From Halocatena pleomorpha (GTDB lineage Archaea > Halobacteriota > Halobacteria > Halobacteriales > Haloarculaceae), in the NCBI RefSeq assembly GCF_003862495.1, contig NZ_RRCH01000022.1, positions 1 to 64,000 on the forward strand: a DNA stretch of 64,000 nt, read 5' to 3'. Within the stretch, counting starts at the first letter, position 1. Each line of letters begins with the position of its first letter. Positions 20,829-37,031 of the stretch are shown here, piece after piece. The notes below the pieces were generated by a model. That model did no database searches. It was not told the DNA's origin and was given only the letters and a program-made list of their open reading frames with translations. The translations under genes were made by a program, and so were the position numbers.

Positions 20829-21302
20829 GTTTGGATGCCTTGGTGGGTGTTGGCGCAGTTGAAAGCACTGCTCAAACCCTATGAACGGAGAAACGAACGA
20901 GTTTCAATGCCTGAGTTGCCGCTGGCACAGTTGAAAGAACGCTTCATCCGACCCAAGCAGATAATCACGAATCGTTTCAATGCCTTCGTCGCCGCTGGCA
21001 CAGTTGAAAGGCGCGATCCGCCAGATAATGACGGCGTCCGGCCAATGTTTCAATGCCTTCGTCGCTGCTGGCACAGTTGAAAGAGAGTATTGCCTCGCGG
21101 TTCACCGAGACACCGACAAAGTTTCAATGCCTGAGTTGCCGCTGGCACAGTTGAAAGCCCTTCACAAGATTCGTGACATGAGGCAGGAGTCTCGGTTTCA
21201 ATGCCTGAGTTGCCGCTGGCACAGTTGAAAGGAAATTGAATGCCCCACCAATAGCATCTTGGAAGGTTTCAATGCCTGAGTTGCCGCTGGCACAGTTGAA
21301 AG
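20829..21302 (-). CRISPR. CRISPR array 1 (7 repeats, 6 spacers)
   Basis: 37-base repeats at 20829, 20901, 20974, 21047, 21121, 21195 and 21266; spacers are 34-37 bases. On the minus strand the repeats begin CTTTCAACTG and end ATTGAAAC, the canonical 8-base crRNA handle, so transcription is leftward from the leader at 21303-21411. This agrees with the repeat at 20829-20865 being degenerate, as terminal repeats often are. Two repeat cores alternate (GAGTTG in four, TTCGTCG in two). Predicted stem: TTTCAA/TTGAAA plus TGCC/GGCA. Confidence 0.96.
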
Positions 21303-21411
21303 AGGGGGTGAAAATCCGTGGAGCGATCCAATAAAGCTTTCTCCATCGGTCTCAGCGCCACCTCTCTTCGTGGACCCCCCCTGTACACGGACTTTATAAA
21401 GGTCCACGAAG
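21303..21411 (-). promoter_or_regulatory. CRISPR leader 1
   Basis: This 109-bp flank is almost identical to the one after array 2. Read on the minus strand it contains TATA box TTTATAAA (21393-21400), about 90 bases before the first repeat. A perfect 11-bp inverted repeat, CTTCGTGGACC (21366-21376) and GGTCCACGAAG (21401-21411), surrounds the core promoter. The repeat-proximal part (AGGGGGTGAAAATCCGTGG from 21303) is the most conserved. Confidence 0.85.
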
Positions 21412-22023: not shown

Positions 22024-22204
22024 GTTTCAATGCCTTCGTCGCCGCTGGCACAGTTGAAAGATCCCGCTCATCGGGTGGTACTTCCGCGAAGAAGGGTTTC
22101 AATGCCTTCGTCACCGCTGGCACAGTTGAAAGCCACGAGTTGATGGCTCCTAACGGACTACATATCCGTTTCAATGCCTTCGTCACCGCTGGCACAGTTG
22201 AAAG
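22024..22204 (-). CRISPR. CRISPR array 2 (3 repeats, 2 spacers)
   Basis: Repeats of 37 bases at 22024, 22096 and 22168 with two 35-base spacers. Cores read TTCGTCGCC in the first and TTCGTCACC in the other two. The end sequences, handle and predicted stem equal those of array 1. Leader 2 lies at the right end, so it is also read on the minus strand, directly downstream of csm5. Confidence 0.95.
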
Positions 22205-22312
22205 AGGGGGTGAAAATCCGTGGAGCGATCCAATAAAGCTTTCTCCATCGGTCTCATCGACCGTCCTCTTCGTGGACCCCCCTGTACACGGACTTTATAA
22301 AGGTCCACGAAG
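22205..22312 (-). promoter_or_regulatory. CRISPR leader 2, overlapping the csm5 stop
   Basis: Nearly identical to leader 1 apart from a divergent block of about ten bases near 22256-22266. TATA box TTTATAAA at 22294-22301; inverted repeat CTTCGTGGACC (22268-22278) with GGTCCACGAAG (22302-22312). The csm5 stop codon (22295-22297) is part of this TATA box, so csm transcripts run into the leader and array. Confidence 0.85.
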
Positions 22313-23428
22313 CGAGGCCTCGATCCAGCCGAGGGGAGCGTAGGGTGAACCATTACGGAGAACGAATTCCCGCGTTTTCGGGAATCGAACGACATTCTCA
22401 AAATTCGGTACGATATCACCTTCAGAGCAACGTGAGCAGAACAGACGACTGGTAGATCGCCTATCCTTTCGCAGCGATCCTCCACAGTCAGCGTGTTTTA
22501 ATCCGGCCTCAATGTTCGCGTTGATCCGCTTCGTTTCCGAAAGCGCCAGTGAGACGGTTTTCGAGTGGTGGCCGGTCCCGAAGCCGATTCGGAAGAACGG
22601 GCCAGTGGTGGGAAGCGTCGAATAAAACTCTACGATACCCTCCGTGTCGATCAACCGCTGGTCTTCGCGTCTGACCACCGCCTGAAACTGTTCGAGAGCA
22701 GCCGAGATTGTCGCTAACATTCCCTCCTCCGAGAGGTCATCCCCGAACACTGCTCGGGCCGTGGCTGTTGCCGATTCCCTATCGACCAACCGGTTCAGCA
22801 GCGGGGCATCCACGAGGATTTCGGTCGTGAGTTCCGTACCATCAACGAGACACTCCGCGTAGTTCGACCAGTGTTTCTTTCGTAACGTTCCAGATCGCTG
22901 TAACGAGTACGTTTTGGTCTCACAGAGGGCCAGTCGGTCGGTTGAGACAGGCTCCGTGTCTCGAACGGTCACACACCGCAATAGATCGTGTCGTGGGCCT
23001 TCGTCACCCACTCGAAAGTGCTCCTCAACTGAATTCCCATCGGTCCGGTTGAGGTGACTTCCATTGGTGAGCAGCCGGTAGGCGAGCGCTGTTCTAATCC
23101 ATCCCTTGAGACTCGTGCCGGGAATGTACGGTGAACCAGTTCCATCTTTGATTGCGACTGAGACCTGACTGTTTCCGATTGAACCAGAGGAAACCCACGA
23201 GGAGAGTGTATACCGCGAATATTGACCCGTATGATCGAAAAACTCGCCTACTGGAGCGCCCCGCTCCATTGCGGCGACGAACGCCTGAATCTCGTCTGGA
23301 TGCTCCCTGAAGTACGCATCTAGGTCCGGAACAGATGCTTGATCCTCATCGAACAGATATTCGTGCTTGTTTAGGGTTGTACCGGATCCGATGTGTGTCG
23401 GGGACCGTATCTTCAGATCCACCTTCAT
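22295..23428 (-). CDS. csm5: type III-A CRISPR effector subunit Csm5
   Basis: 377-residue RAMP protein capping the 3'-crRNA end of the Csm complex. It starts with VDLKIRSPTHIGSGTTL, typical of Csm5, and contains PYIPGTSLKGWIRTALAY (near 98), the conserved RAMP glycine-rich loop. The C-terminal part has an unusual cysteine set (HADCGG then FCSRC, near 312-335) that may bind zinc. The start overlaps the csm4 stop by 4 bases (ATGA). The last codons overlap the outer inverted-repeat arm and TATA of leader 2. Confidence 0.92.
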   Translation of the reverse strand: MKVDLKIRSPTHIGSGTTLNKHEYLFDEDQASVPDLDAYFREHPDEIQAFVAAMERGAPVGEFFDHTGQYSRYTLSSWVSSGSIGNSQVSVAIKDGTGSPYIPGTSLKGWIRTALAYRLLTNGSHLNRTDGNSVEEHFRVGDEGPRHDLLRCVTVRDTEPVSTDRLALCETKTYSLQRSGTLRKKHWSNYAECLVDGTELTTEILVDAPLLNRLVDRESATATARAVFGDDLSEEGMLATISAALEQFQAVVRREDQRLIDTEGIVEFYSTLPTTGPFFRIGFGTGHHSKTVSLALSETKRINANIEAGLKHADCGGSLRKDRRSTSRLFCSRCSEGDIVPNFENVVRFPKTREFVLRNGSPYAPLGWIEASLRGPL

Positions 23429-24495
23429 TTCGTCTCACCGGCGGAAGGAGACGCTGTTTGTGGAGTGATTCCAACGGGGAGCGAGTACCCGTACTGTTGG
23501 ACTCCATGCTCGAAATGATCGGCAACGATGGGGTTGTAGCCATACGGTTCCTCGCGGTGTTCCCCGTCCGTTTTCTCGAATCTCCGGTCGACGGCCGTTT
23601 GTCGAGGTAAGATGGATCCCTCAGAAAGAGCAAGCACGCGCTTTTTCCAAATTGTGTCGGGGGATGCAAGTGAATTCTCGATGACGCCTTTCCGTGGCTC
23701 GATCTCATAATAACCGTTCGTCAAAAACGGTTCCAACTCCTCTGGGTGGGGTATACAGAGTGACAATGTACAAAAGAAGTCACCGTCCGGCTGTGGAAGA
23801 TCAAACGATCTGACCCCGTCGAGACGGAACTGACCGTGTCCCACCGACCGATCGCCACCAATCCCACGATCTTGGGCCACGGAGAGACCATCGAGGACGA
23901 GATCGATATCACCCTCGACACAGACATGCAGCCCAGCAACATCCGAGAAGAACACGGCGTCTCGGTGATAAAGGGAACTGTCCGTTGCCATTGTCAACCG
24001 GTTGACAGCGTTACGCGTCCGTTCTGTTCTCCAGATTGGTTTTCGGTCCGATTCAGCTGGCAGCAGAAAGCGCCGATCGTGGACGTACTGACGCCCTCCG
24101 ACTGTGATAGTTCCATTCTCATCAAAACCGGCCAGCAGCTCACTATCTGAGACCGTTCCAGCAGCGATCATCGAAAAGACCGATGCAGGAACGTATTCGA
24201 TCTGTTGCCACACGTCCAGCGCTTCGAGACGCTCATCGGTCATCTCCCCAACTCCGGCGGACAGCATGGGGAGTCGCGGTGTCGCCAGCAGATACTCACG
24301 GTCATCCCTATCGAGCAGCGGAAACGCGGACGAGATACGAAACGGCGGACGATCCGCTTGGAACTGCGCCAGAACGTCTTCGAGACACTCAGTCCCCCGT
24401 ACATCGCGGATCCCCCAGCAGATCGCCCCGAACAGCGTATCAGAGCGCGGTATCTCGCTGAATGGTCCGTCTGGTGAGAGCAATACCGATTCCAT
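23425..24495 (-). CDS. csm4: type III-A CRISPR effector subunit Csm4
   Basis: 356-residue RAMP (Cas5-like) protein that holds the crRNA 5' handle and contacts Cas10. N-terminal SDTLFGAICWGIRDV, central NAVNRLTMATDSSLYHRDAVFF and the glycine-rich GIGGDRSVGHGQFRL (near 235) are the standard Csm4 motifs. It starts three bases after the csm3 stop and overlaps csm5 by 4 bases. No truncation seen. Confidence 0.93.
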   Translation of the reverse strand: MESVLLSPDGPFSEIPRSDTLFGAICWGIRDVRGTECLEDVLAQFQADRPPFRISSAFPLLDRDDREYLLATPRLPMLSAGVGEMTDERLEALDVWQQIEYVPASVFSMIAAGTVSDSELLAGFDENGTITVGGRQYVHDRRFLLPAESDRKPIWRTERTRNAVNRLTMATDSSLYHRDAVFFSDVAGLHVCVEGDIDLVLDGLSVAQDRGIGGDRSVGHGQFRLDGVRSFDLPQPDGDFFCTLSLCIPHPEELEPFLTNGYYEIEPRKGVIENSLASPDTIWKKRVLALSEGSILPRQTAVDRRFEKTDGEHREEPYGYNPIVADHFEHGVQQYGYSLPVGITPQTASPSAGETK

Positions 24496-24498
24496 TGT

Positions 24499-25236
24499 TC
24501 ACTTGATCTCGAGGATCTCTCTCACTTCGTCGAGCGTGTCGACCGATCTACCTTCCTGGTTCCCTGTGCGGTACCCGTCGGTGGTCCGGACCACGTACTC
24601 ATCGTGGTGAAATGTGACCTTCCCGTAGCCACGCGAGCCGTTCCCCCCGAGTGATGAGCCTTCTAACAGGAACAATGCCCGCTCGATCGCGTTGAGATTG
24701 TCTGAATCATGGCGGCCACCATCATCGAGATCGTAGACGCCATAGACGAGCTCGTAGCTGAACTCGGACCCCCTTGGAACCCGCTCGTTGCTTCGAGGCT
24801 TCGCCTCTGTAGTCACTCGATTGATTGTGTTCTCCGTCTTAACTTCCGTGTACGGAAGTGCTGTATCCAACTGCCGCCATCGTTCGATCGTTTCCTCCGT
24901 GGGAAACGCGTCTCGAACCGAGAGACGACTCGGACCGGTTAGTGCCTCCGTCTCTGCAGTAGTACCAAATATTCGACAAATAGGGCATGTAACGGCATCT
25001 TCTCCCTCACAGACGTGTGGTTCGCCGTCATCCTCAATCATCCCTGCATCCCACTCCAACAGCGAACGCAGTTTTCCTTTGATCGACGATCCAGGTATGT
25101 AGGGATGTCCCGTGGTGGGACTTTTAACGATCGGTCCGTCAACCCCACCGATCTCCAAGGATCCTTCATCACCGATATGCAGTCCAGTCTGGCACTCAAG
25201 AACGCCATTGAATACCACGTGACCGAGCAGTTCCAT
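24499..25236 (-). CDS. csm3: type III-A backbone and target-RNA nuclease Csm3
   Basis: 245-residue Cas7-like RAMP that polymerises along the crRNA and cuts target RNA at 6-base intervals. The expected catalytic aspartate is present as Asp33 in LEIGGVDGP, followed by HPYIPGSSIKGKLRSLLE. A zinc-knuckle-like HVCEGEDAVTCPICRIFG lies near 74-91, and the glycine-rich GGNGSRGYGKV near 200. The csm2 stop and csm3 start share one base. Confidence 0.95.
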   Translation of the reverse strand: MELLGHVVFNGVLECQTGLHIGDEGSLEIGGVDGPIVKSPTTGHPYIPGSSIKGKLRSLLEWDAGMIEDDGEPHVCEGEDAVTCPICRIFGTTAETEALTGPSRLSVRDAFPTEETIERWRQLDTALPYTEVKTENTINRVTTEAKPRSNERVPRGSEFSYELVYGVYDLDDGGRHDSDNLNAIERALFLLEGSSLGGNGSRGYGKVTFHHDEYVVRTTDGYRTGNQEGRSVDTLDEVREILEIK

Positions 25237-25610
25237 CAGTTCTCCACCCCGACCTCAGTATAATACGAGTGATACGCGACTGTTGCTTCCATGATTCGAA
25301 AGAATATCTCCATATCTTCGTCACTACAATCTCCAACAACCAAATCCATGAATCTAGATATTTCATCCTTTACGTCTTGCATTTCTTCCTTCCGTGCAGC
25401 TGCATACGCTAGGTGTGGTTTGATGAGAAACAGTGTTTGCTTAGCCTGTTCTGTATCATCCTCAAACTTGAACTCGTTTTCTGCTCGTTTGATCTCTCCA
25501 AACACTTTTCGTAATTGGCTCGTGCTGACGTCGTTTTCAGCGAATCTTTTTCCGAGTCGCTCTCCTGTATTGTCTATCTTCCTGACTTGTTCTGGTGTTA
25601 GTGTTGTCAT
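25236..25610 (-). CDS. csm2: type III-A small subunit Csm2
   Basis: 124 residues, all-helical and charged, starting MTTLTPEQVRKID and containing SQLRKVFGEIKRAE and LIKPHLAYAAARK, which match the Csm2 pattern. It forms the inner filament of the complex, contacting target RNA. Six bases after the cas10 stop. Base composition here and in parts of cas10 and csx1 is more AT-rich than in the housekeeping genes. Confidence 0.9.
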   Translation of the reverse strand: MTTLTPEQVRKIDNTGERLGKRFAENDVSTSQLRKVFGEIKRAENEFKFEDDTEQAKQTLFLIKPHLAYAAARKEEMQDVKDEISRFMDLVVGDCSDEDMEIFFRIMEATVAYHSYYTEVGVEN

Positions 25611-25616
25611 AATGAA

Positions 25617-28052
25617 TCACCGTGTTGCAAGTGCTGTCCATGTCACTGGTACTGAAATCCACGGAAGCGCTGGTGGGATCTTCTCGTCCAACTCATTCAT
25701 CGCTTTTTTAGAAGCATTTCTAGATAGAAGATATTTTATCTCCCATTCCTTCTCTACGCCAATATGTGTCCTGTTTGACTCCGTGTTTTTGGCTCGTTGT
25801 TCGACACTATCGGCAATATTGATGAGGGAATACACGAAGGAATTTGATATTTGTTCGATATGAATAAGATATTCGAATTGACAACCGAGATCGATCAGAT
25901 CTAACATACTGGGATCGCCATCGCTGACCCAGCTCTGTGTCTCTCCGAACAGCCACGCGGCGTTTTTCTCCTGTGCGCCTTCCGAGAACGCCTTGGCGGC
26001 GTCGAGTCGCTCTTCTGCGTGTTCGATCGCCCGTCCGATCGGATATTTCGGTTTCATTCGGTAGAACCCCCCACTGATGGTGAGCGTCTCCGAGCAGTAC
26101 GCCGCTAACTGCGCTCGGATCTCGCGCCCGAAATCGACTGCCTCGTCCCACGGTCCGACGAAAAACAGATCGTCACCACCCGAGAAGCCGATGTAGATCG
26201 GTGGAATGCGCTCGACACACTCCTCGTGAGGCAACTTTTGTTTGTCGATCAATCGATAGTAGGACGCCTCATCTGGTTCGCATTCATGCCGGTGTTCGAC
26301 CGTCCGCTCGTCCAGCTCTTCGAGTTGTTCTTGACACGCCGAACACGCGTCATCAGCGTGCACGTAGGAACATTCCTTGGCGAGTGTATTGAGGTATCCC
26401 TCGAAGAACAGCGACAGCGTTCGCCCGATCGCACCGAGCCGGGCCGGGCCGTGATCCATCGCTGACGAGATCGTCCGCCCGAGATCGTCGATATCCATCT
26501 TCACTACGTGGTTGAACGCCTCCTCACCCCTGGCGAGTTGGGCTTGTTCAGGGAACGACCAGACGCGACTGATGCCACCATCATAGGGCACGGTCTTCCC
26601 GGTGAGGACGAACCCCCAAGGGTCGATTGAGTCAGGGCGCTCGGCCAAGTTCACCGAATACACCCGATCGGCCGTCCCGGCTGTAGAGGCGAACTGCCAG
26701 CAGACGGGACCATCAGACAGCTCCCGGCCGAACTGGAACTGATCGTCGTCCGTATCGTCCGGATCGGACTCGAATTCGAGTCGGAGAAACTTTGATTCGG
26801 GGAGCTTCTTGCCGATCGCTTCCTGTGTTTCACACTCCTGACACCGGTCTTCGCCGGGAGGTTTGTCGCCGCCACAGATCTGACACGGTTCGAATCGGGG
26901 TTCGTCGTTCCACTCGTCGATAATGGGTGTTTCATACTCCGACGCGATCGATTTCCCCTTTCTGAGCTTTCGCCTGTCGCTGTCGCGTGCCACGTGCTCG
27001 AACAGTCTCGAAAACGAGTCTGCCGAGCCGTCCGCGTGGGCGCAACCCACAACGAAGCTGAGTTCTCCTGCGAACCGTTCGAACAGTTCGGTATTGATTC
27101 CTCGCTCAAACTCTGCCAACCGCTCTGAGACGGTGCTGGTCCCTTCCGTCTCGATGGGTGGCACGACCGCGTAGAACTGCCCGCCGCCGCTCCAGACCAC
27201 GCTCGTGCTCGGAAGTCCCATCTGCTCCAGAAACAGCGTGCTGAGGCTCTCAGTGAGCAGCCACAGCTGGGTGCTCCGGCCGCGCATTCGCTTGGCGATG
27301 TTGTCCTGAGCGTCATCGGCGTTTTTCACCCGGTGGAGGAATGACTGGATTCCTGAGAGATCGCCTTTCACAAGCGTGAAACACGATCTCTTCTCGTCTC
27401 TGTTCGTACTCTCCGTTTCGTTCGCAATCGCTCGGATATCGCCGGTTTCGAGATCGGATCGGTGGAGTGCAACGCCGATAGCGGCCGTCGTGCGCAGGTG
27501 ATCGTACAGCGGGAGTGTGGGCGTATCGGGAAACGCCGGGACACACCATGTGTACTTTTCGAGGAGGTGTACGAGCGTCTCGTAGCTGTCCCCTTTCTCG
27601 ACCGCATCGGTGAGTCCGTTCCACAGCTGTTCGTACCCAGATTCGGCCGTCTGGGAGTGATCTCCAGCGTTTTTCGGAAACAGCGTCTCCCGATCGATGG
27701 CCAGCCCCGAGAGTGGATACGTGTCCCTGATCTCATCCTCAGAAACGGCGTTGAACACGCTCTGAAGCCGGATCGGCTCCTCGTCCGTGGCGGCTCTCCC
27801 ATGATCCGACGCGAGCTGACTCGCTGCCCGTACTACAAGCGCCTTCCGCCGAACCTCTGCAGAGATGTTCTGTGGGATCGAATCGGTGTGGTGCAGTTCA
27901 ACCAGCTCAGCTGCTCGTTCGTCACCGATCCGTTCTCGGAGGAACGTCACCGTCTGCTCAACGTGATCGAGACCGGGGGTAGTCCGGCTTCGAAGCCGCC
28001 CGATCTCACTGAACAAACACGCCAGCTGGTAGGAGGGTACCGACTCCGTCAT
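25617..28052 (-). CDS. cas10: Cas10/Csm1, type III-A signal-generating subunit
   Basis: 811 residues. Two palm domains: the first with KGDLSGIQSFL (near 229) and GGGQFYAVVP (near 289), the second with MDIDDLG (519-525) and the intact GGDD cyclase motif at 625-628, so cyclic oligoadenylate synthesis is expected on target binding. A zinc ribbon CQIC/CQEC lies at 390-407. An extra Cys-rich insert (C561, C570, C573, C591, C612) sits just before GGDD. The N-terminal HD nuclease motif is missing: the site reads LFSEIGRL where active homologues have LLHDIGK. DNase activity by that domain is therefore unlikely. Confidence 0.95.
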   Translation of the reverse strand: MTESVPSYQLACLFSEIGRLRSRTTPGLDHVEQTVTFLRERIGDERAAELVELHHTDSIPQNISAEVRRKALVVRAASQLASDHGRAATDEEPIRLQSVFNAVSEDEIRDTYPLSGLAIDRETLFPKNAGDHSQTAESGYEQLWNGLTDAVEKGDSYETLVHLLEKYTWCVPAFPDTPTLPLYDHLRTTAAIGVALHRSDLETGDIRAIANETESTNRDEKRSCFTLVKGDLSGIQSFLHRVKNADDAQDNIAKRMRGRSTQLWLLTESLSTLFLEQMGLPSTSVVWSGGGQFYAVVPPIETEGTSTVSERLAEFERGINTELFERFAGELSFVVGCAHADGSADSFSRLFEHVARDSDRRKLRKGKSIASEYETPIIDEWNDEPRFEPCQICGGDKPPGEDRCQECETQEAIGKKLPESKFLRLEFESDPDDTDDDQFQFGRELSDGPVCWQFASTAGTADRVYSVNLAERPDSIDPWGFVLTGKTVPYDGGISRVWSFPEQAQLARGEEAFNHVVKMDIDDLGRTISSAMDHGPARLGAIGRTLSLFFEGYLNTLAKECSYVHADDACSACQEQLEELDERTVEHRHECEPDEASYYRLIDKQKLPHEECVERIPPIYIGFSGGDDLFFVGPWDEAVDFGREIRAQLAAYCSETLTISGGFYRMKPKYPIGRAIEHAEERLDAAKAFSEGAQEKNAAWLFGETQSWVSDGDPSMLDLIDLGCQFEYLIHIEQISNSFVYSLINIADSVEQRAKNTESNRTHIGVEKEWEIKYLLSRNASKKAMNELDEKIPPALPWISVPVTWTALATR

Positions 28053-29269
28053 ATGATCTCCGACCAGTATTCGTCGTCATCGATCTTTTCGCAGAGTTCG
28101 AGAACAGTGTTGTAGATCATGTCCTCCGAACGAATATCATCCGCCTTAAATCCGGAATGCGCATACCAATTTCGATAATCCTTAATTTCTTGCCATAGAT
28201 TAATGGCGGCTATGTCGTCTATATTTTTCTCTTCTTGTTTCTTTGCCTTTGCATTGATCATCCTCGATGCGCACTCTCTGTTATTTCGATCAATCCACTC
28301 ATCGAGACCGATCCCTACTGTGAGCATGAAGCGGTTGATGAACAATTCCCTCGCGCAGCCGAGTGCGAGCCGGTACCGATCGTACTCTGCGTAAAACTCG
28401 ACGAGCTCCCGCTGTCGATCGATCTCGTCCATATCGAGTGCGATATCAGTATAATCATCGACAGCATCAACGGAAAATCGGTTAAGCCGCTCTGAAAGTG
28501 GATGCAAAAATCGTTCTTCAGGTCCGATAAGATCACTGTTGTCGATCTCTTGTATTGTGGCAAGAGCATCCTGAGCGGCTTTTCCTGCTCTGAGTGGTAT
28601 CCCAGAGTCAAAATATCGGCTCGTTCCGTTGAGCTTTTTTACTAACTCTTCGAGAGCCTTAGAATTATCTGCATCTTCATCACGACACAACGCCACCTTT
28701 CGCTCCTTGAGAAGTCCGTGGACTGATCGAAGCTCTCCCGTTCGTTCGAACGTATTGATTGCGTGATACCACTCCATGAGTGTATGCAGATGGGTCATAT
28801 CAATGACTGGCGTCACCTCACTTTCTGACTGAAATTCGCTGTAGTAGATTCCACCAATTTCAACGTTAGAAAGCGCATTCAGGTGGAGCACGGCGGCGAA
28901 AAATACCATCGGAAGCGAGCGAAAGCCGAATGTGATATCCAAAACAACCTGTTCATGATCGTGTTCCCGAATGAGTTCAATCAGTTCTCCAACTCGGGCA
29001 TCGATTTCGGTTCGATTTTCCGCGACTGCGATCGTCTCGAATTCACACGGAACATCGATTTTCTCAAATGCCTCATTGAGTGCGTCGTCGTTTTTGGACG
29101 CTTTCTCAGTCCTCGCGATGAGTGCACGATCGATCTCCACCAGTTCAGCGAGTGCGACCGGACTGAACTTCGTTTCATAACTCTCACCATCGAGCACGTA
29201 ACTCGTCTTCTTGTACCTGCTTTGATCTCCCGTCCCCATACTAGAGACGAGGAGTGTTTCTTCACGCAT
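28049..29269 (-). CDS. csx1: CARF-HEPN CRISPR ancillary RNase (Csx1/TM1812 family)
   Basis: 406 residues. The N-terminal CARF domain begins LLVSSMGTGD and carries DITFGFRSLP (111-120), the characteristic TM1812-family motif; a C-terminal HEPN domain has the RNase motif RNWYAH (R366 to H371, R-x4-H). Cyclic oligoadenylate made by Cas10 should bind CARF and activate RNA cleavage. First gene of the csm operon; its stop overlaps the cas10 start by 4 bases. The transcript is almost leaderless from the shared divergent promoter. Confidence 0.92.
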   Translation of the reverse strand: MREETLLVSSMGTGDQSRYKKTSYVLDGESYETKFSPVALAELVEIDRALIARTEKASKNDDALNEAFEKIDVPCEFETIAVAENRTEIDARVGELIELIREHDHEQVVLDITFGFRSLPMVFFAAVLHLNALSNVEIGGIYYSEFQSESEVTPVIDMTHLHTLMEWYHAINTFERTGELRSVHGLLKERKVALCRDEDADNSKALEELVKKLNGTSRYFDSGIPLRAGKAAQDALATIQEIDNSDLIGPEERFLHPLSERLNRFSVDAVDDYTDIALDMDEIDRQRELVEFYAEYDRYRLALGCARELFINRFMLTVGIGLDEWIDRNNRECASRMINAKAKKQEEKNIDDIAAINLWQEIKDYRNWYAHSGFKADDIRSEDMIYNTVLELCEKIDDDEYWSEII

Positions 29270-29293
29270 GAGTGACCGATCAAAGGTCGATAC

Positions 29294-29304
29294 AGTTAAT
29301 AAAT
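29294..29304. promoter_or_regulatory. shared AT-rich core promoter of csx1-csm and cas6
   Basis: A single AT element (TTAATAAAT at 29296-29304) is the only TATA-like stretch between the divergent starts. It is about 25 bases from the cas6 ATG and about 31 from the csx1 ATG, both right for TBP-directed starts at or just before the codon. One element may serve both directions. Confidence 0.55.
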
Positions 29305-29324
29305 CCTGTGACTCACGTTACGTC

Positions 29325-30056
29325 ATGCGTTGTCTCGTGAAGCTCCGATCGACCCAACGACAATCGTACACCTCTGCCTACCACATCAAGCTTCAAGGCC
29401 TTCTCTACCAGATTCTCGCTGAAGCGGGATACGAATTCGTCCACGAAGAGAATCCATTCAAATTCGTAACCTTTTCGAATATCTTCCCACCGACAGACAT
29501 GAACGAAGGTGATCGACGAACATGGCTTGTCGCCAGCCCCCATGAGCATCTCATCCAGAAGTTCTCGGAGACCATCGCGGACTACGACACCGTTTCGGTC
29601 GGTGAGCACCGGTACGCCGTCGAGTACACGTCGGAGTTCGAGCTCACGCCCGAGGAACACGCTGCCGTCGAAACCGGTACGCCGATCGTGGTACGGATCC
29701 CGGCAGCCCGGTGTGAATCGTACGGGATTGACGCGGAATACGACGACGTGTACTGGCGGTTGGAACATCCCACGGAGGCGTTCCAAGAAGAGATCGAGCA
29801 AAATCTCGCAACGAAATACCGACAGTACTACGACCGTGATCCTCCCGAGCGCCCGTACTTCACCGATCTAGCCCCGAAAAAGGAGGTGGCGATTCCGTTA
29901 CACTACGATGATGGGGTGGTGCAGACGATCGGTACGACGTGGGAGCTACAGTACGACTGTCACACCCGCGCCGAACACCGACTGATGCGTTTGGCGTACA
30001 GCGCCGGACTCGGTGAGTTGAACACGACCGGATTCGGATTCATCAACAACGCGTGA
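29325..30056 (+). CDS. cas6: Cas6 crRNA-processing endoribonuclease
   Basis: 243 residues with tandem ferredoxin-like folds. Candidate catalytic residues are Tyr28, His40 and Lys46 in the order seen in Pyrococcus Cas6, with FKFVTFS following. The C-terminal glycine-rich loop GLGELNTTGFGF (near 228-239) is typical. It should cut within repeats to leave the AUUGAAAC handle. ATG 29325 is chosen because the TATA element is 25 bases upstream; the frame continues upstream into the csx1 start. Divergent from csx1 and convergent with cdc48. Confidence 0.93.
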   Translation: MRCLVKLRSTQRQSYTSAYHIKLQGLLYQILAEAGYEFVHEENPFKFVTFSNIFPPTDMNEGDRRTWLVASPHEHLIQKFSETIADYDTVSVGEHRYAVEYTSEFELTPEEHAAVETGTPIVVRIPAARCESYGIDAEYDDVYWRLEHPTEAFQEEIEQNLATKYRQYYDRDPPERPYFTDLAPKKEVAIPLHYDDGVVQTIGTTWELQYDCHTRAEHRLMRLAYSAGLGELNTTGFGFINNA

Positions 30057-36290: not shown

Positions 36291-37031
36291 ATGAACACTA
36301 TCGATGAAGTACACATTGCACCGTTAGGATACGAGTACGATCGGGTGTTGGGACCTGCGTGTCAGTACGATATCGACGTTATCTATCTGCTCGAACACGA
36401 CGAGCCGACGGCAGAGAAGCCGGATTACCACGAGGCACTCAAAACGGAACTCGTCGAGACGGGCATCGAGACCCGTTCCCGGACGGTCGATCTCATGGAT
36501 GTGTACGACGTGTTGGGCGAAGTCACGACGCTAGTCTCCGAACACGTAGACGATATCGTTCGCGTCAACGTCTCAAGCGGGTCAAAACTCTCAGCGGTCG
36601 GTGCGACAATCGCGTGTATGGCGACGGACGCAACGGCGTACTACGTTCACCCCGAAGGCTACGCCCACGCCGACCGTGCTGAACGCCAGAGCTACGGCTA
36701 CGTCGACGACGAAGTGCTCCCAACCTACCCGATCGAGTCACCGACGAGGGATCAGGTGGCAGCGATGGATTTTCTCGCGTTAGAGACGACCGAGATGTAC
36801 ACACCGAAAAAGAAGGACATCATCGAATACGCAGAGGAGAACGAACTCTCATTCATTTCTGAAAACCAACCCGCGAACGATAAAGCGAAGTTCGCGTTGC
36901 TCAACGCTAACATCATCGATCCACTCAAAGAAAACCACTACATCGAGGTGAACACGGTTGGGCGTCAAAAACAGGTCACGCTCACTGATACCGGTCGGAA
37001 TGCGCTGCGAGCGTTCCGACACAAGATATGA
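36291..37031 (+). CDS. HFX_2341-family CARF-like wHTH regulator
   Basis: 246 residues. The N-terminal domain (about 1-140) has a Rossmann-like pattern with IAPLGYEYDRVLGPACQY and VNVSSGSKLSAVGATIACMA, a glycine/serine loop at the place where CARF domains bind nucleotide ligand. The C-terminal winged helix (about 160-246, with ALLNANIIDPLKENHYIEV and VTLTDTGRNAL) should bind DNA. It matches the haloarchaeal HFX_2341 regulator family, considered CARF-like. It lies about 6 kb from the csx1/cas10 genes, so a link to cyclic-nucleotide signalling is possible but unproven. Confidence 0.75.
   Translation: MNTIDEVHIAPLGYEYDRVLGPACQYDIDVIYLLEHDEPTAEKPDYHEALKTELVETGIETRSRTVDLMDVYDVLGEVTTLVSEHVDDIVRVNVSSGSKLSAVGATIACMATDATAYYVHPEGYAHADRAERQSYGYVDDEVLPTYPIESPTRDQVAAMDFLALETTEMYTPKKKDIIEYAEENELSFISENQPANDKAKFALLNANIIDPLKENHYIEVNTVGRQKQVTLTDTGRNALRAFRHKI

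Follow-up and report, generated by a model that had tools for sequence, protein, structure and literature searches.

The closest described counterpart of the element reported here comes from the type I-A system of Sulfolobus islandicus, where a motif in the distal leader (–143 to –94) is bound by Csa3a, an activator of CRISPR transcription that efficient adaptation requires (PMC9456107). Csa3a sites in Sulfolobus can cover both the BRE and the TATA box yet still activate (PMC4333418). In type I-E and I-F leaders, IHF sites place a protein in constant phase with the integration point, upstream of it (PMC9456107). Cyanobacterial type I-D leaders, which are 202–220 bp long and are associated with a WYL-protein regulator, contain conserved motifs I–III that affect spacer uptake (PMC10212523). 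Little is known of how haloarchaeal CRISPR arrays are regulated.

Here we describe a conserved 46-bp leader element of Halobacteria, a putative control site, which is not local to the stretch of DNA in which it was noticed. Like the S. islandicus motif, it is of the order of 50 bp, occupies the distal leader and lies upstream of the array promoter, and most genomes that carry it also encode a Csa3. The two differ in position (–143 to –94 versus –109 to –64). The Csa3a motif has an established role in array transcription and adaptation (PMC9456107), and the haloarchaeal element would have a comparable one. The element is found on euryarchaeal type I-D and III-A arrays, unlike the Sulfolobus I-A motif, and, apart from the outer TTC/GAA, its arms (TTCrTsGACC) bear no resemblance to TTCNTAACTAAANANGGNNNGAAA, the csa1-promoter palindrome of Csa3a (PMC4333418). 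It can be likened by description to the cyanobacterial motifs and, in its phasing, to IHF sites; IHF is bacterial, however, and the haloarchaeal element has the form of a long dyad whose arms measure 11 bp each. We found no description of the element in the literature searched, although one may exist outside that literature, and we file it as a putative new variant of leader-distal regulator site, with Csa3 as the candidate binder.

Inverted repeats in two array leaders

The window (that is, the whole 64-kb stretch of DNA analysed) contains two CRISPR arrays, both on the minus strand. Array 1 (20829–21302; first repeat 21302–21266) has class A repeats (CTTTCAACTGTGCCAGCGG...GCATTGAAAC), and array 2 (22024–22204) consists of three class A repeats. 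An initial annotation reported a perfect 11-bp inverted repeat in the leader of each, and its arms and coordinates proved exact. In leader 1, CTTCGTGGACC (21366–21376) and GGTCCACGAAG (21401–21411) are separated by 24 bp; in leader 2, the arms (22268–22278 and 22302–22312) are separated by 23 bp. No other perfect 11-bp inverted repeat with a gap of 3–40 bp occurs in the window. When one mismatch is allowed, CTTCGTGGACC occurs 8 times, compared to 2.2 expected.

Read on the array strand, each leader has the order CTTCGTGGACC–TTTATAAAGTCCGTGTACAGGGGG(G)–GGTCCACGAAG, 63 bp, first repeat. Arm 1 of leader 1, the distal one (21401–21411), is CTTCGTGGACC on this strand; it spans –99 to –109 relative to the first repeat and forms the 5' limit of conservation. 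The core (21377–21400) comprises an AT box, which might serve as a BRE-less promoter (P1), and a conserved TGTACAG, while the array-proximal arm 2 (GGTCCACGAAG; 21366–21376) spans –64 to –74. The initial annotation had the arms surrounding TTTATAAA, which is correct but incomplete, as the conserved TGTACAG lies inside too. The next 63 bp (21303–21365) hold a linker, a BRE (GAGAAA), a TATA box (TTTATT; P2, the likely array promoter) and CACCCCCT at the leader–repeat junction. Leader 2 is built the same way, with arm 1 at 22302–22312, arm 2 at 22268–22278, a core (22279–22301) that is shorter by one G and a 63-bp stretch (22205–22267) containing the P2 BRE/TATA and the junction. Rfam models identified one tRNA in the window and no other known RNA. 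A sequence resembling arm 2 (CGGCCACGAAG or CGGCGACGAAG) is present in the class A repeats of both arrays, possibly by coincidence.

Conservation in Halocatena and across Halobacteria

A search of the window's genome for further arm pairs, as the initial annotation had suggested, returned six exact pairs (three on contig C15 and one each on C25, C28 and C30), all of them in CRISPR leaders, and no match to a reversed control pattern. Further degenerate copies were recovered by profile search. Five of the six leaders precede class A repeats (CTTTCAACTG...GCATTGAAAC), and the repeat behind the C30 leader (GTCACAGTACCCTAGAAACCCA...CGGGATTGAAAC) is of class B, which is unrelated to class A. In the 148 family genomes searched, a single genus has the exact pair; when as many as three mismatches are tolerated, 6 of the 7 genomes of that genus carry it. 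Named members of this genus are Halocatena halophila YIM 93972, isolate YIM A00013, Halocatena salina and H. marina. A chance repeat is ruled out by the uniqueness of the two copies in the window, the genome-wide pairs with zero control matches and the recurrence throughout the genus.

Distinct Halocatena leaders carrying the element number 33 and belong to two unrelated repeat types. Arm 2 lies 63 bp from the first repeat in 32 of them, the exception having a broken repeat, and the gap between the arms varies solely via the G run. Between classes A and B, identity is 88% in the element, 53% in the next 63 bp and 26% in the 25 bp upstream. The last value is that of random sequence, and hence arm 1 is the outer edge of the element. 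Several solitary leader remnants (L166, L168, L007:9805–9849, L211 and L212) have behind them a single repeat, a broken one or no repeat at all. Another locus (G000:C28:16328–16373, in L007) is a deletion scar, in which the leader AT box is fused to a lone repeat and arm 2 and P2 are gone.

Across the class, we searched with a sequence-only profile of the 46-bp element. Matches, a few of them weak, were found in 36 of 394 Halobacteria genomes, representing 26 genera; as the profile was trained on Halocatena and loses sensitivity with distance, this count is roughly a lower bound. We read the stronger and many of the weaker matches, and nearly all are CRISPR leaders or remnants with one repeat or none. 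Those plasmid matches that were inspected are leaders of cas clusters. The inverted repeat is thus kept in related leaders, both within the genus and in the other genera, contrary to the loss that the initial annotation had named as refuting its proposal. Type I-B-like arrays examined (repeats ending TTGAAGC) lack the element, and a transposon or virus origin was rejected, phage records and viral contigs giving no match. Two weak matches with no repeat behind them (G148, E = 0.02; G405, E = 0.001) were taken as chance, and a Catellatospora match from a genome scan (L010), in which the core is absent, also looks like chance. Conservation in many genera, including described and named species, makes binding and function directly testable.

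Typically, matches come as outward-facing pairs of leaders about 10 kb apart, placed around csa3 and cas6-(cas10d-like)-csc2-csc1-cas3'-cas4-cas1, with the csa3 gene abutting one of the two leaders. RefSeq annotates such clusters as type I-D with Csa3, Cas1 and Cas2. Genes for csa3 are present in 29 of the 36 element genomes, compared to 37 of the 358 others (odds ratio 36, P = 2.5e-19, uncorrected for shared ancestry); the window's own genome encodes csa3, intact. When clusters were fetched by csa3 alone and examined blind, the element was seen in L186, L188, L195, L203 and L205, and was not seen in csa3 cluster L206, which has different repeats, or at array L204. Outside such clusters, csa3 genes have almost no arrays nearby. 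No csa3 was found in element genomes G039 and G043 and in some drafts; the arrays of G039 are short, with degenerate repeats. In a second cluster variant (e.g. L131, L133, L135 and L138), cas1, cas4, cas6 and csa3 are type-I-D-like and the effector genes are strongly diverged.

Promoter position and arm symmetry

The 46-bp consensus is nTTCrTsGACC-TTTwTnAA-n6-TGTAcrG-n5-GTCsACGAAn. Over 74 leaders from the whole class, the arms read nTTCrTsGACC and GGTCsAYGAAn, with the AT box TTTwTnAA and then TGTAcrG between them. Conservation in these leaders rises from 0.16 bits per base upstream to 1.51 in arm 1, 1.10 in the core and 1.36 in arm 2, and downstream it amounts to 0.25 in the linker, 0.78 in the BRE/TATA region and 1.23 at the junction. 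The linker, the 19 bp 3' of arm 2, is near-random in sequence and fixed in length. Downstream of it lie GAGAAA (BRE) and TTTAT (TATA), then AT-rich sequence, with CACCCCCT at the junction itself, and the distance from arm 2 to the repeat is the same 63 bp class-wide, within alignment shift.

Haloarchaeal promoters have the consensus CGAAA for the BRE and TTWT for the TATA box (PMC4983044). Nearly every leader has a BRE plus TATA site (P2, about –41 to –28) in the interval that separates arm 2 from the repeat. TATA-like matches were counted in 78 class-wide leaders; 24 have one at the AT box inside the inverted repeat, compared to 58 at the downstream site. In many genera the AT box reads TTTTTCAAA or TTTTTGAAG, and beyond Halocatena it mostly does not resemble a TATA box; inside the arms there is no BRE, the GACC of arm 1 preceding the box in practically all leaders. 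By these motifs, P2 is the better haloarchaeal promoter of the two, with a predicted start near the repeat junction; a second promoter at the AT box, which fits TTWT, is possible but unneeded. These data argue against the earlier view that the arms bracket the core promoter. What survives of that view is a symmetric site, most likely bound by protein, that serves the leader.

The same data bear on the mechanism originally proposed, in which a dimeric repressor would cover the BRE side of P1 and the start, blocking TBP/TFB. In its favour, the arms in the window do enclose TTTATAAA, the class consensus TTTwT agrees with the haloarchaeal TTWT, and the start predicted from it would fall in arm 2. 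Given that the AT box lacks a BRE, follows GACC, departs from TATA in many genera and is outdone by a promoter outside the arms, we regard such a repressor as improbable. Repression would also be opposite in direction to the action of the closest studied factor, Csa3a, which activates.

The initial annotation also offered a hairpin of the arms used in spacer integration, and we weighed this as a hairpin or cruciform, in DNA or RNA, acting in integration or termination. The single strand does fold more stably than shuffled sequences (z = –3.8 and –4.0), and changes on both sides of the arms are more frequent than in shuffles (40 versus 26). Class-wide, 81.9% of arm cells pair, compared to 22–45% when the arms are slid against each other; this nonetheless leaves ∼18% unpaired. 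Within Halocatena, the arms are perfect in 18 of 33 leaders, and the other 15 have uncompensated mismatches, so that the arms often change on one side alone. Moreover, the non-pairing core is conserved nearly as well as the arms, and with P2 as the promoter the inverted repeat would be left untranscribed. A hairpin role is thus very unlikely. Invariant columns are placed symmetrically (C4 with G43, A9 with T38), and the symmetry appears better suited to two half-sites read by the same protein than to a stem.

Candidate readers of the element

We give an even chance to the reading in which a dimeric CRISPR factor, with Csa3 the most likely one, uses the element as its operator in the distal leader and so tunes transcription and possibly adaptation. 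The two arms would be the half-sites of the 46-bp operator, bound by a dimeric or paired-dimer CRISPR-associated factor, for which the CARF–winged-helix protein Csa3 is the prime candidate. Sitting at –109 to –64, ∼20 bp upstream of the P2 BRE/TATA, the factor would set the level of array transcription, with activation more likely than repression. Like Csa3a in Sulfolobus, it would probably also mark the leader as a target of spacer integration, and it may be tuned by cyclic oligoadenylate from the type III Cas10. The defined border of the element, its fixed phase to the integration site and the neighbouring candidate regulator make it a tractable case.

The Csa3 of the window's genome (L008, 4244–4924) adjoins the C30 leader. 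It scores 73.6 bits against TIGR01884 (cut-off 60.2), also exceeds the cut-off for PF22662, and consists of a CARF domain and a winged-helix domain. Its predicted structure (pLDDT 93) best matches the Csa3 entries 2WTE and 6WXQ; a phmmer search of the PDB with the single protein gave no match, whereas a profile search did. The Csa3 recognition helix has invariant S, R and H. Several observations count against Csa3. None of 42 csa3–cas6 intergenic regions contains an arm-like site; instead, this divergent promoter has a different dyad, CGTTGCA-N6-TGCAATC, in many clusters (e.g. L144, L145 and L195), at a fixed offset about 9 nt from the csa3 start. This dyad is possibly an autoregulatory site, which Csa3 may prefer. 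Owing to the missing arm-like site, we class the leader element as one that would work like a Csa3 operator and not as a proven member. Element leaders also persist in G039 and G043 without csa3, and a single winged-helix dimer would have to span a wide gap (24 bp, with 35 bp between the arm centres). The statistical link to csa3 extends to the I-D cluster as a whole, cas1 included. In partial Mantel tests (Csa3 HTH, Cas1, Cas4 and Cas6), the arms covary weakly with the Csa3 HTH, and not more clearly than they do with Cas1.

For a regulator, the initial annotation had pointed to the CARF protein encoded at 36291–37031 (plus strand). By family match, this is a CARF–wHTH protein of the HFX_2341 family, a global haloarchaeal regulator that is found also in species without CRISPR (PMC11434293), and the csa3 next to the C30 leader is the better candidate. 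The idea that the element is a site for a general haloarchaeal factor of this kind draws on the Csa3a-like character of HFX_2341 and its repression of cas genes in Haloferax mediterranei (PMC11434293), and it could account for elements in genomes that lack csa3. Yet HFX_2341 is conserved in CRISPR-less species, whereas roughly one genome in ten has the element, and practically in leaders alone, and the type I-B-like array leaders examined in the same set are without it. We consider a general factor very improbable.

A more serious rival, owing to the exact phase to the junction, is that the Cas1-Cas2(-Cas4) integrase or a leader-bending host factor reads the element and places spacers, with transcription not the target. 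The 63-bp distance to the integration site is kept despite the non-conserved linker, and CACCCCCT is conserved at the junction. The element is confined to leaders, with none at the cas promoter, and cas1 and cas4 accompany it even where effector genes have been replaced; the cyanobacterial type I-D motifs provide a precedent (PMC10212523). The spacing to P2 is equally fixed, however, so the phasing does not single out integration. In addition, the window's genome keeps intact elements, csa3 and cas6, although its type I-D cas1 is reduced to the last 52 residues (G000:C30:429–584; L209). On balance, this reading is possible but the less probable one.

The window's arrays adjoin a type III-A cluster (22295–29269, minus strand), which encodes, toward the arrays, a Csx/TIGR02221 CARF protein, cas10, csm2, csm3, csm4 and csm5, with a cas6 on the plus strand (29268–30056); no cas1 was found near this cluster. 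From this and the I-D cas1 remnant, it follows that III-A arrays here use a I-D-type leader. Two CRISPR types sharing one leader would be a simple route for a type III system without Cas1 to gain control, and perhaps new spacers. Cas10 (25617–28052) keeps its GGDD cyclase motif, which makes cyclic oligoadenylate signalling plausible, and we infer a possible link from this signal via Csa3 to the arrays. In a more speculative extension, which we think doubtful, I-D leaders would carry a Csa3 (CARF) switch connecting type III cyclic oligoadenylate signalling to array transcription or memory formation, and III-A arrays lacking cas1 would have taken over the leader for the same control and adaptation machinery; in that case the AT box would act as an additional promoter dependent on Csa3. 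The csm5 gene shares its 3' end with leader 2, whose arm 1 provides the last codons of the gene: CTT CGT GGA CCT TTA TAA (LRGPL and stop; 22295–22312) spans arm 1 and the AT box. In Halocatena marina, csm5 likewise extends into the leader.
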